Origin: Nitrososphaerota archaeon
Lineage (GTDB): Archaea > Thermoproteota > Nitrososphaeria > Nitrososphaerales > UBA57
Length of the DNA stretch: 64,000 nucleotides
Reading direction: 5' to 3'
Assembly (NCBI GenBank): GCA_024860875.1
Contig: JACPSZ010000001.1
Coordinates: 62,001-126,000 of the forward strand
Shown in pieces: positions 27,346-59,047 of the stretch. Both the position numbers and the translations under genes were made by a program. The notes below the pieces were generated by a model. That model had not been told where the DNA came from. It saw only the letters and a list, made by a program, of their open reading frames with translations, and made no database searches. The first letter of the stretch is position 1; every line of letters starts with the position of its first letter.

Positions 27346-27444
27346 TGCGGGGGGTGGGATTTGAACCCACGAACCGCTAACGGACGGGGTTTCTTACAAG
27401 AAGACCTAAGCCCCGCGCCTTTGACCAGGCTTGGCAACCCCCGC
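27346..27444 (-). tRNA. tRNA-Leu (anticodon UAG) with 14-nt intron
   Basis: The acceptor GCGGGGG pairs with CCCCCGC, discriminator A. D-arm: GCC-AAGCCTGGTCAAA-GGC. Anticodon stem CGGGG/CCCCG encloses a loop C-T-TAG-G-[14 nt]-A; the inserted TCTTCTTGTAAGAA is a self-pairing intron at the canonical 37/38 position. A long variable arm (CCGTTAGCGG) and T-arm GTGGG-TTCAAAT-CCCAC complete a class II leucine tRNA. The mature length is 85 nt. Confidence 0.93.
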
Positions 27445-31413: not shown

Positions 31414-31529
31414 TGCGGTCGACGGGATTTGAACCCGTGTCATCAGCTTGGAGGGCTGATGTCCTAGACCAGACTTTCCACATGTCATTGACGCAACTTG
31501 ATATTGCACATGCTCTGGACGACGACCGC
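31414..31529 (-). tRNA. tRNA-Gly (anticodon UCC) with 41-nt intron in the D-loop
   Basis: The acceptor GCGGTCG pairs with CGACCGC, discriminator A; anticodon arm ATCAGC-CC-TCC-AA-GCTGAT; T-arm ACGGG-TTCAAAT-CCCGT. The D-arm GTCC...GGAC is split by about 41 nt between CCAG and TCTGGTCTA. CCAGA before and TCTGG after the insert pair, with an internal CATGT/ACATG helix, giving a bulge-helix-bulge-like fold. Removing it leaves a 75-nt tRNA. Confidence 0.9.
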
Positions 31530-55175: not shown

Positions 55176-55541
55176 ATGCAGAAGGTTTCCGCTAACCATG
55201 AAGAGGACTTGGTAAATCCAGCTGCGCTTAGAAAGATCTTGGGGGATTCTGCCATGGTAAGGCTCTTAGACTTTCTCACCACTAACAGGAGGCTAGATTA
55301 TTCAAAGACTGAAATAGCGAAATACTCTGGCATTGGATGGAAAACGATCTTTAAGCTCTGGCCCATGCTTGAGAAATACAATTTGGTAAAGTTGACAAGG
55401 AAGGTTGGGAGGGCCAAACTGTACAGGCTAAATATCGAATCCCCGATCGCAAAGACTCTGGATAGGTTGGCATTGCAGATAGCAGACTTTGACAATGAAC
55501 CTTTAATCAAGAAGCAAATCATGCAGGCAGCTTCACAATAG
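55176..55541 (+). CDS. ArsR-like winged-helix regulator
   Basis: 121 residues with helix-turn-helix 'YSKTEIAKYSGIGWKTIFKL' (~42-61) and a wing 'LVKLTRKVGRAKLYRLN'. A TATA-like ATTTATTT lies about 28 bp before the ATG. It is divergent from the winged-helix gene at 54821 and convergent with the integrase, overlapping its 3' end by 23 bp. It may be a repressor of the element. Confidence 0.72.
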   Translation: MQKVSANHEEDLVNPAALRKILGDSAMVRLLDFLTTNRRLDYSKTEIAKYSGIGWKTIFKLWPMLEKYNLVKLTRKVGRAKLYRLNIESPIAKTLDRLALQIADFDNEPLIKKQIMQAASQ

Positions 55542-56769
55542 CCGAACTGTCAGGGAGGCTAGCAACATATTCCCAACCCTGCACTATGTAGTTTTTGACT
55601 TCCTTCATGGGAATGACCTTCTGTCTCGATCCGTTAGTTGTCATTTTGTTCTTAAGTTTCTGATCTAACCCCTTTTGAATTAGTTCCATGAACTCTTCAT
55701 TTGACAGGCCGGTTATGTCAACTGTGGGCGGAGGTTCAGGTGAATAGGCAATCATCAACATGGTCATTTTCGTATTCATGTTATCAGTCTGCTCAACTCT
55801 GTCCATCGGCCTCACGGCTAGCTTGGGAAGTGCAACCCTGTAAGAGTCCCTTAACTGCTCCTCCGTTGGCCTTGAATATGCTCCTCCTTGTGAACCTCTG
55901 GGTATGTGTCCTAGCAGATAGTCAACCCAATTCAAAGGAATACCTGAGCTTTCAAGAATAGTCTGAGCTCTCTTCCGTAAAATATGGCCGTGAAATTCCT
56001 TCAACCCCTTCTTATTGGCATTTAACCCAACCTTGAAACCCAATTTAGCGATCCTTGTTATTGTAGTAGTCTTTGCGAGGGGTTTCCTATTCTTAGAAAC
56101 AAAGAGATATGAGTCATTGGTAATTTGCTCTCCCTGTTTCTGTCTTATCTTGATAAATTCCCTTAACGAATTAACGGTATCTCTCCCAATGAAAGCAACG
56201 TAGGGAATATTCCCTTTCGTTATCTTTGAAGGAAACCTGACAATACAGGGAATTTTGTCAGATCCATAATCCTCTTTGATATGTCCATACTTCAACTGTA
56301 AAACTGAGCCGATCCTAGCACCTGACTCTATCAACATATACAGAAGAGGCCTTAATGCACCTTGAGCGATAGTGCATAGTTTGAAGAGCTCTTCATTTGA
56401 AGGGATCTTCTCAATTTCACGCTTTGGAGCTGGTCTTTGAATTGAAATCTCTAGGGGTAAATGGTTCGCATTATAGAAACTCTTGACATAAGACGCTAGG
56501 GTATCCCCTCCTTTTGTATTGTTAGCAAACGCCTTTAGGGTATCTTCGGTTCTGAACCTGACTTTTACATTCTTTGAAAGGGACTCTTTTGTCCTTTCGT
56601 CAATGAGCTGGTCAGGGTTCTTGTCTAGTGCCTTCTCATAACGGTATATCGAATATAGGGCATTTCGAATTGTGTTCTGTGAATTGTTTCCTAGCTCATT
56701 GAGCCATGTTTGTATTGATGAATAGTTTCGAAGTCTTTCAAATTCAACCTTCAGGGAAACGGTTTCCAT
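55519..56769 (-). CDS. int: Tyrosine recombinase (integrase)
   Basis: 416-residue tyrosine recombinase that catalyses site-specific integration and excision. The catalytic residues are visible: Arg152 ('SGARIGSVLQLK'), Lys ~182-185 ('SKITKG'), the HxxR box 'FHGHILRKRA' (His262, Arg265), His288 ('LLGHIPRGSQGG') and nucleophile Tyr298 ('AYSRP'). The extra C-terminal ~110 residues are acidic and helical. It lies 57 bp from the aEF-2 stop, beside the right attachment repeat, as expected for an element inserted there. Confidence 0.93.
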   Translation of the reverse strand: METVSLKVEFERLRNYSSIQTWLNELGNNSQNTIRNALYSIYRYEKALDKNPDQLIDERTKESLSKNVKVRFRTEDTLKAFANNTKGGDTLASYVKSFYNANHLPLEISIQRPAPKREIEKIPSNEELFKLCTIAQGALRPLLYMLIESGARIGSVLQLKYGHIKEDYGSDKIPCIVRFPSKITKGNIPYVAFIGRDTVNSLREFIKIRQKQGEQITNDSYLFVSKNRKPLAKTTTITRIAKLGFKVGLNANKKGLKEFHGHILRKRAQTILESSGIPLNWVDYLLGHIPRGSQGGAYSRPTEEQLRDSYRVALPKLAVRPMDRVEQTDNMNTKMTMLMIAYSPEPPPTVDITGLSNEEFMELIQKGLDQKLKNKMTTNGSRQKVIPMKEVKNYIVQGWEYVASLPDSSAIVKLPA

Positions 56770-56825: not shown

Positions 56826-56843
56826 TCATTCTGTATCGATGAA
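56826..56843. repeat. Right attachment-site repeat (aEF-2 3' end)
   Basis: TCATTCTGTATCGATGAA; its minus-strand reading is the aEF-2 ending Phe-Ile-Asp-Thr-Glu-TGA. It matches 50785-50802 at 15 of 18 positions. It forms the crossover point of the integrated element, leaving the aEF-2 coding sequence intact. Confidence 0.75.
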
Positions 56844-59047
56844 CTCGCTTGCCTGAGGAGGTTCTGGCGAGAGGCCCTTCCTCTTCCTGATGTCAGTTAT
56901 CAGCGTGGGTAATATTGATGCTGGAACCTGAGACCAAGCCTTGAAGTGAGTGTTCCACAGGGCCTTGCCTGCAGTCGCACCTCTCATGATTTCAGAAAGG
57001 TCGAAGGTTTCTGATGCTGGAACTTCTCCTTCTACAATCGTCACGATTTCCTTTTGCTCAACGTTCAGCATCTTTCCTCTTTTGGACGATATTACGCTTG
57101 CAATTGCACCTATCTGCTCGGCTGGACATTTGACTTCTATGCCAAGCATCGGCTCGAGGAGTGTTGGTTGTGCAGAAAGCATAGCACCAAGAATGCCCCT
57201 CCTTGAGGCTGGCATCAGCTGCGCGTATGTTCTGTGAGCGGGGTCTTCGTGAGGAACATAATGATGCAGAATTACTTTGACCCCCCTGCAGTATTCGCGG
57301 GACAGCGGCCCTTCTTCCATAACGTCCTCAAAGCCAGATCTTATGGAATCCATTGACTCCTGGAGGTACTGTACACCTTTTGTGGCGTCTAGCAGGATGT
57401 TTCCTTTGTTGTCGATTGTAACGACGCTCTTGGCTTCGTCAGAATCCCATCCCAAATCTCTTAGCGTCTTTGCAAGCTGCTTCTTATCCGTGTTTTCGTT
57501 GATCTGACCCGTTCTGATCAATTCGACTATGTTGTCTGGCAATGCTTCTACGCGCATGAATATCTTGTTGTGCCTGTTCGGAGACTTTGACATTATTGGA
57601 CCAGCCCTTCCCCTTATGGTCTCCCTGTAGTTGATTAATGGCCGTGAAGTGACAATCTCTAGTCCTGCTTGCTGTATGAGCGTCGTAGCTATTTCTAAAT
57701 GCAAAACTCCCATGCCTGAAAGGAGCATTTCTCCAGATTCTTCATCGATTTTTACTACAAGATTAGGGTCTTCGATGCTAAGCTTTCGTAATTCTTCAAC
57801 GAGCTTTGGAAGCTCCTTTGGATGCTTCGACTCTATAGCGATTGTGACTACTGGCTCTGAAACGTACTTTATTGCTTCGAAGGAAGCTACGTCTTTGATC
57901 GTGGAGATGGTCTCTCCTGATCTTGCATATTCTAAGCCGAGAAGTGCGGGGATGTTCCCTGCTGACATCGTGCCAATAATTTCCCTAAACGGCCCCATGT
58001 ACATGTTTACAGACTGAATTCTTCCCTCCCTCTTTGCGCCGAGCAAGTAAACTGTATCGCCATCACGTACAGTTCCAGAGTATAATCGTCCTGTGGCGAC
58101 AACGCCTGCCTGAGGGTCAACAACTACATTTGTAACCATCATGACTATGGGCCCTTTTTCGTCGCATGCAAGAAGAGCCTTACCAACATCACTATTCAAA
58201 TCGCCTTTCCAGATTTTTGGAATTCTGTAAGGCTGTGCAACATGGGGAGGAGGATGGTGTTTGACGACCATGCCGAGAACCGCTTCGTGTAGCGGAGATT
58301 TTTCCGACAGTTCCTTTACTCCGTCTTCGGTGTAAGCCTTGTATATGTCAGAAAATTTAACGCCTGTCTTCCGTGCCATGTCAAAGTTGAAGCCCCAGCG
58401 GTCTTTTGCAGAACCAAATGAAACTGTACTACTTTGAATGCTTACCTTCCACTTTTCCTTGTACTCTGGCTCTGCATAAGCATCGATAAGGTTGTTAAAA
58501 TCGCTGACAATATCTGCCAGCCATGCTTGCATTTTGTCCGCGGTAAGCCTCAGCTCCTTCACGAGACGGTCGATCTTGTTGATGTAGAGAACTGGTCTAA
58601 CTCTCTCTTCAAGTGCTTGCCTGGTTACAGTCTCTGTTTGCGTCATTATACCTTCTACAGCATCCGAAACTACTACAGCACCATCAATGGCCCTGAGACT
58701 TCTGGTAACTCTACCTGTAAAATCTATGTGCCCGGGGGTATCGATCATGTTGATGACGTACGGTTTTCCCTCCTGTTCGTAGTATAGAGTAACATTAGCA
58801 GCTTTGATGGTCATCTGGCGCTGCTGTTCAAGTGGCATAAAGTCTAGAGCAAGGGCTTGACCAGCGATTGAGGGGCTTAGCATGCCGCAGGCAGCCAAAA
58901 GGCTGTCGCTCATCGTAGTCTATTCGGCTGAGAGAGGTTTCTCACTCAGTTTCCGTGATCTACGTGAGCTATGACCCCAAAGTTCCTGATCTGGTTCTTA
59001 TTCCCTACGACCTTCATTACTTCTGTCGTTGACTTGTACTTTGGCAA
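56826..59047 (-). CDS. fusA: Archaeal elongation factor 2, interrupted by a 29-nt intron
   Basis: GTPase that drives ribosomal translocation. After removal of 58922-58950 the frame encodes 730 residues from TTG 59047: 'MPKYKSTTEVMKVVGNKNQI', P-loop 'AHVDHGKT' (27-34), G2/G3 'RQMTIKAANVTL' and 'MIDTPGHIDF', G4 'NKID', domain IV with diphthamide-type 'HEDPAHRT', and the conserved end with FIDTE. Without splicing the frame stops at GGA-AAC-TGA right after His-Gly, or the protein starts only at ATG 58913 and lacks the P-loop. A TATA-like TATATAT lies near 59089-59095. The stop overlaps the attachment repeat of the mobile element. Confidence 0.93.
58922..58950 (-). other. Predicted bulge-helix-bulge intron (29 nt) in the aEF-2 gene
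   Basis: Minus-strand order is exon GGAA, intron ACTGAG...CGAAT, exon AGACTACG. Helix CGG/CCG plus an A-A mismatch forms the central part, with a 3-nt bulge AAA on the 5' side and ATA on the 3' side; CTGA/TCAG and GAGA/TCTC form the inner stem and CGTAG/CTACG the outer one. The cuts give Lys33 codon AAG from A plus AG. It is 29 nt long, not a multiple of three, and contains an in-frame stop. Confidence 0.8.

Follow-up and report, generated by a model that had tools for sequence, protein, structure and literature searches.

A putative bulge–helix–bulge intron in the P-loop Lys codon of an archaeal aEF-2 gene, with counterparts at two sites in related genomes

The closest described counterpart of the insert studied here is the bulge–helix–bulge (BHB) pre-mRNA intron of cbf5, reportedly found in Crenarchaeota by Watanabe in 2002. 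RNA-seq has also served as the basis for proposing introns in one or two further protein genes of archaea. Pre-mRNA introns of archaea are confined to the Cbf5 homologs of some crenarchaeons according to the available portion of a 2016 review (PMC4810243); the cbf5 mRNA is the only further BHB intron reported to date in the available part of a 2020 paper (PMC7714728); and Yokobori 2009 (PMC2738675, section 9, the part at hand) has introns in other archaeal protein genes as predicted and unconfirmed. A preliminary description of our locus, made from the letters alone, had called protein-gene introns rare in archaea, with cbf5 as the best-documented case. Introns of this kind are very rare. Our literature search (titles and the starts of abstracts, with most subscription papers outside its scope) returned no prior intron in aEF-2 or aIF2-gamma, and a word search of the accessible text of the Nitrosocaldus genome paper (PMC5797428) did not return 'intron'.

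The insert lies in the aEF-2 gene of a Nitrososphaerota archaeon (G000; 1.67 Mb in 25 contigs, 91.56% complete), within a contiguous stretch of 64,000 nt that we call the window. Like the cbf5 intron (as described in the part of PMC2738675 at hand), it is short, sits in a protein gene and has a BHB at its borders, with each bulge predicted to be cut after its second residue; unlike the cbf5 intron, its host is a translation GTPase of other archaea, the gene has two alternative sites, and there is a same-codon case in a paralogue. The cbf5 gene inside the window is uninterrupted (332 aa). With archaeal tRNA introns cut by EndA the insert shares size range, BHB geometry and presumably the enzymes, but it is in an mRNA, whose exons must keep a protein code as well as a pairing code. 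The 5'-UTR BHB of HVO_1309 in Haloferax volcanii (PMC7714728, available part) is also an mRNA substrate of the splicing endonuclease; it lies in an untranslated region, whereas the aEF-2 insert interrupts coding sequence. The features of the locus are as follows (window coordinates):

58951..59047, minus strand: aEF-2 exon 1 (97 nt), from translation; TTG start at 59045-59047, ending with base 1 of the P-loop Lys codon
58922..58950, minus strand: putative 29-nt intron ACTGAGTGAGAAACCTCTCTCAGCCGAAT; the frame is broken by TGA at 58946-58948, and GKTT is back on removal
56826..58921, minus strand: aEF-2 exon 2, which begins with bases 2 and 3 of the Lys codon and runs to the stop
58911..58966, minus strand: predicted BHB structure (outer exon–exon helix, central CGG/CCG, inner intron hairpin), from the minimum free energy (MFE) fold and pair counts
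58950..58952, minus strand: 5' bulge AAA, with the cut predicted from geometry between 58951 and 58950
58921..58923, minus strand: 3' bulge ATA, with the cut predicted from geometry between 58922 and 58921

The minus-strand frame from the TTG at 59047 translates as LPKYKSTTEVMKVVGNKNQIRNFGVIAHVDHGN, passes through AHVDHG and then meets Asn and a stop; downstream of the insert the open frame picks up again with TTMSDSLLAACG. Excision of 58922-58950 joins GGA-A to AG-ACT and yields AHVDHGKTTMSDSLL, with the P-loop HVDHGKTT and a Lys codon split A/AG; the gene then has 32 codons, the Lys, 697 codons and the stop, 731 in all. Both the frame that stops after AHVDHG and its repair to a 731-codon gene had been claimed in the preliminary description and are borne out by translation of the frame and junction and by the codon count. 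The exon 2 frame from its first Met (695 aa) is aEF-2 (TIGR00490, 827 bits against a cut-off of 738, E 8.7e-249), and the start pattern [ML]P[KR][YF]K...IRNFGVIAHVDHG is present in the aEF-2 of many relatives. No second intact aEF-2 gene, whose discovery had been named beforehand as refuting the intron, turned up in the 91.56%-complete assembly; there is one full match and one match of 21 bits (L002), the latter not counted as an aEF-2. Scans for sigma-70-type promoters and terminators gave no result.

Directly downstream of aEF-2 (55519-56769, minus strand) is a tyrosine recombinase gene (PF00589). Thaumarchaeal mobile elements have been reported to integrate in EF-2 genes, according to the accessible part of PMC6563490.

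We read the insert as a pre-mRNA intron of the archaeal BHB type, in an essential gene that would be a new host for such introns; there is no RNA evidence, and we nevertheless consider this reading very probable. Two other identities were rejected. A group I or group II intron is ruled out by size, as the insert has only 29 nt against a core of hundreds of nucleotides, and by the lack of an Rfam match (at gathering scores, Rfam gave only 3 tRNA matches in the window). An intein in the window's aEF-2 is ruled out by the stop that the insert puts in frame. Inteins do interrupt the same P-loop in other aEF-2 genes, at the border between GK and T, but they are large and spliced at the protein level, unlike the 29-nt insert: intein-like inserts (GK/TT) are found in G014, G063, G075, G081, G076 and G091, and that of G014, the only one scanned, has Intein_splicing and LAGLIDADG domains.

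Unconstrained folding of the RNA of 58905-58966 (z = -3.48; 0 of 200 shuffles equally stable) gives the outer exon–exon helix, the central CGG/CCG, the bulges AAA and (A)AUA and the intron hairpin. The helices and bulges of the preliminary description are thus recovered without constraints; the qualification is that the central helix is CGG/CCG plus an A.A mismatch (3/4 pairs), i.e. a relaxed BHB, and that the motif is unspecific on its own. A loose scan of the 64-kb window finds 735 and 800 BHB-like sites on the two strands, and 48 and 92 that also bridge an interrupted frame, the aEF-2 one included; among 20,000 shuffles of the letters of the G000 intron, 1.0% have at least 3 central pairs and an inner helix of at least 2. 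Because loose BHB motifs are so frequent by chance in the window, the motif alone is weak evidence, and we rejected it as the sole ground for calling an intron. The full 4-bp central helix ACGG/CCGT is present in two relatives (G015 and G029). It is the comparison with relatives, not the motif, that lifts the G000 insert far above chance.

This comparison covered 61 genomes (G000 and 60 relatives), 60 of them with a match and 59 with a readable aEF-2 N-terminus (G031 has no match and G051 a weak match only). The P-loop Lys codon, hereafter site A, is interrupted in seven of the 59 (G000, G001, G003, G004, G006, G015 and G029, of families f1 and f7). In another 19 the interruption is in the Asn codon of IR-N-FGVIAHVDHG, which lies 11 codons upstream of site A and is called site B below (families f2, f3, f4, f5, f12, f13 and f17; in f4 and f5 the predicted cut is one base further on). 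The N-terminus is uninterrupted in 32, genus g2 of family f1 among them, and one (G014, L163) has an intein rather than an intron, between the Lys and Thr of the P-loop. None of the aEF-2 genes read has introns at both sites. G001, of the same genus as G000, has an intron of 28 nt against 29 nt, a difference of one base, and G010, a single contig 99% complete, has a single aEF-2 match with a site-B intron. The shortest intron tabulated is one of 16 nt at site B in G052 (L035). An alignment with relatives had been proposed as a check on the intron, and inserts in the same codon of six other genomes, with precise absence in 32 of the 59 readable ones, give strong support to it; two aEF-2 sites, many lineages and two cases in aIF2-gamma (below) go beyond what had been claimed.

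Outside these families, site-B introns are found in family f18, which is outside the order (G061, G067, G070 and G073), and in G367; a covariance model (R1), applied across the phylum to 349 genomes, pointed to ten that have site-B introns and stand outside the class, and three further site-B introns lie beside matches of a second model (R2; 256 genomes of the class of G432). In family f11, G229 and G316 have site-A introns, and an intron of 23 nt in G353 lies one base further downstream than site A. The carriers in the wider class are those among the matches listed, and of 400 genomes mainly the interrupted-looking genes were read, so that no class-wide frequency follows. R2 tallies are not intron counts, because this model also scores intronless aEF-2 genes (38-nt matches); it also missed G353.

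In the light of these genes, it is hardly credible that the insert arose by faulty sequencing or assembly, or that it marks a pseudogene. The assembly is admittedly a draft in 25 contigs, and the G003 gene has an extra lesion. But inserts occur at the same base in f1 and f7 genomes with different sequences and similar pairing, the remaining frame is intact and conserved, and no other aEF-2 copy was found. In G003 itself (L004/L083, JACPBJ010000148.1) the site-A intron is present and about 35 codons are missing just downstream, either by misassembly or by real damage.

The same genomes bear on a regulatory role, in which the endonuclease would destroy the mRNA at this site and EF-2 would come from an unseen second gene. 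A 5'-UTR BHB is processed in Haloferax (PMC7714728, available part), and the 91.56% completeness of the G000 assembly leaves room for such a gene. However, second aEF-2 matches in the 61 genomes are weak or parts of one gene, so that a hidden second gene must have been overlooked in each of the carriers; exon 2 is conserved as protein; and G010 looks like a closed carrier genome with a single aEF-2 gene. The chance of this reading verges on negligible.

44 aEF-2 introns were tabulated as predicted BHB introns (31, ten and another three: G229, G316 and G709); G003 was not tabulated as its exon 2 is damaged, nor were the site-B introns of G710 and G708, which the search pattern missed. Lengths range from 16 to 63 nt (n=44). 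Removal restores the conserved Lys or Asn in 44/44, which is partly by construction because the borders were chosen by frame and conserved letters. The informative test is the coincidence of the BHB cut points with these frame-restoring borders: by pairing potential, a full central helix (4/4 pairs, G-U allowed) with 3-nt bulges is found there in 40/44, the exceptions being G000 and G001 (3/4 pairs) and G004 and G006 (2/4). When 13 representative introns were shuffled (20,000 times each), 0.09-0.5% of the shuffles had the complete helix together with an inner stem of at least 2.

The central helices are of the types TTCG/CGAA, TTCG/CGAG, CAGG/CCTG, TCCG/CGGA, TCCG/CGGG, ACGG/CCGT, ATGG/CCAT and CGGG/CCCG. 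Exons with (A/G)TT-CGA go with TTCG/CGAA or, once, TTCG/CGAG, exons with (A/G)TC-AGG with CAGG/CCTG, and exons with ATC-CG with TCCG/CGGA or CGGG; synonymous exon changes are tracked by the intron side of the central helix. Unconstrained MFE folds retain at least 3 central pairs in 29/44 introns, G000 included, and have zero central pairs in 15/44 (G004, G006, G010, G026, G034, G037, G045, G059, G061, G067, G073, G367, G443, G518 and G709). In these 15, another fold predicted at 37 C would be in competition with the BHB.

These data also weigh on programmed bypassing or frameshifting, in which ribosomes would cross the hairpin with the RNA uncut. There is a stable hairpin in the gap, and hairpins are part of known bypassing elements. 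According to PMC2738675 (section 9, as far as available), cbf5 introns were at one time mistaken for frame-shifting. However, lengths modulo 3 in 31 introns are 0 in 11, 1 in 13 and 2 in seven, and a single frameshift cannot explain the introns because all three classes occur; moreover, the exon–intron pairs of the central helix stand exactly at the cuts predicted. In the unspliced RNA, the triplet standing in place of the Lys codon is TAG in G000, G001, G004 and G006 and TAA in G015 and G029: with a split Lys codon and a stop triplet in its place, hopping could not give back the Lys. At site B, the triplet for Asn is AAT in only 10/24 genes and otherwise GAT, TAT or TGT. Only joining of the RNA yields the conserved residue in all these genes, and we regard bypassing or frameshifting as very unlikely.

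Covariation was measured in two alignments: A1, with six of the seven site-A genes, and A3, with 14 of the 19 site-B genes of its type; the pair statistics are not corrected for relatedness. At site A (6 sequences), 91.0% of cells are paired, compared with 25.7-43.8% when the 3' partner is slid; six pairs have changed on both sides, and the covariation score is 0.219 (0.119 shuffled, at most 0.100 slid). A contrary measure at this site is the number of further pair types, 7 observed against 8.7 in shuffles. At site B (14 sequences), 89.5% of cells are paired (34.2-49.1% slid), five pairs have changed on both sides, and the score is 0.152 (0.084 shuffled, at most 0.046 slid). Neither alignment has a compensatory change in the central helix, which is invariant at site B and departs at site A by unpaired cells only; within the alignments the covariation sits in other helices, and central-helix covariation is seen only between groups.

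The exon flanks of carriers are more complementary than those of non-carriers: the mean is -16.0 kcal/mol (n=24) versus -7.9 (n=57) at site B, and -16.4 (n=7) versus -8.1 (n=70) at site A. The complementarity of the weakest carrier is reached by 8/57 non-carriers at site B and 17/70 at site A; among such non-carriers are G057, G019, G033 and the f1 genomes G007-G009, and G040 at site A. By inference, G007-G009 may hold relics of a lost site-B intron.

The R2 search also found BHB-like introns in a paralogue, at the homologous P-loop Lys codon of aIF2-gamma: one of 29 nt in G432 (L234) and one of 28 nt in G739 (L257). The host genes match TIGR03680 with 609 and 597 bits (cut-off 514.5). Their central helix has 4/4 pairs in one and 3/4 in the other, and the MFE folds of both have at least 3 central pairs (the fold of the G432 intron has z = -4.2). 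The exon letters flanking the G432 intron (CACGTGGATCACGGAA / AGACCACG) are identical to those in the aEF-2 of G004.

The enzymes that the intron reading calls for are partly at hand. The genome has two splicing endonuclease genes (PF01974); the first aligns to 3p1z_B (E 1.3e-39), a chain from a solved tRNA-splicing endonuclease of an archaeon, which we take to be Aeropyrum pernix. Tyr, His and Lys are the catalytic residues of the splicing endonuclease. The second gene encodes a divergent partner, with Ser at the position of His in the solved domain of 5x89, and we infer that the two EndA-type subunits assemble into a hetero-oligomeric endonuclease. RtcB ligase has 0 matches in the 91.56%-complete assembly of G000; it was found in 58 of the 61 genomes, the same-genus G001 included, and in G000 it probably lies in an assembly gap. 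8 out of 19 tRNA loci of the genome (Rfam loci, ARAGORN) have introns of 12-34 nt, one of them a tRNA-Leu inside the window (27346-27444), so that introns of this same small size are in use in its tRNAs.

One partial Rfam tRNA match in the window (31422-31475, minus strand; L080) was not called by ARAGORN even with introns allowed; it is possibly a tRNA with unusual introns.

Removal by the tRNA-splicing enzymes, as the preliminary description had inferred, is by far the best reading and is supported by the comparison of relatives, with the reservations that the BHB is relaxed and that RtcB was not found in the organism's own assembly. In the aEF-2 transcript, exon 1 would have two pairing partners, exon 2 and the 3' end of the intron, and the two 3-nt bulges would be exposed; an endonuclease of two EndA-type subunits would cut after the second base of each; RtcB would join the exons and remake the Lys codon as A/AG; and the intron would be set free, probably as a circle. 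Splicing would have to outpace translation: the unspliced mRNA stops after 33 codons, so that EF-2 could not be made without it. The conserved position, the frame-restoring borders at BHB cut points, the covarying helices, the EndA-type genes and the tRNA introns are seen in the sequences, and cutting, ligation, intron release and splicing ahead of translation are inferred. The predicted products include the spliced site-B junction ATTCGA-AATTTTGG and a circular intron of 37 nt (f2, G010) and the junction-spanning peptides IRNFGVIAHVDHGK and HGKTTMSDSLL.

The history of the introns is less clear. On an aEF-2 gene tree of 77 rows (G004 absent, G353 not counted as site A) at least 4 changes are needed at site B and 3 at site A; a single clade is rejected for site B (p-AU 0.004) and not rejected for site A (p-AU 0.077). 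A tree of 93 rows, with G353 counted as site A, requires 7 and 6 changes, respectively, but it gives no reading of ancestry, since carriers make up 13 of the 14 rows that it has from outside the class. Whether gains were few and losses many, or gains themselves were many, is left undecided by the gene tree, and transfer is also possible. A further idea, which we offer tentatively and think rather unlikely as a whole, is that the P-loop region of translation GTPase genes is a recurrent landing zone: BHB introns may have moved between sites, and even between the homologous Lys codons of two paralogues (aEF-2 and aIF2-gamma), through reverse splicing into RNA of almost the same sequence. The synthesis of core translation factors would thereby be gated by tRNA-splicing enzymes, and elongation capacity coupled to tRNA maturation.

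Taken as introns, the inserts place BHB introns in a highly conserved, essential translation gene in many lineages and at two sites, as well as in the same codon of a paralogue, and the birth, loss and possible movement of such introns would become directly testable. Truncated EF-2 gene models in these archaea could be explained, and marker-gene pipelines based on EF-2 could be affected. Since small introns stand at two places of aEF-2 in relatives, mRNA splicing is most likely needed for an essential protein: some archaea would have to splice an mRNA to translate at all.
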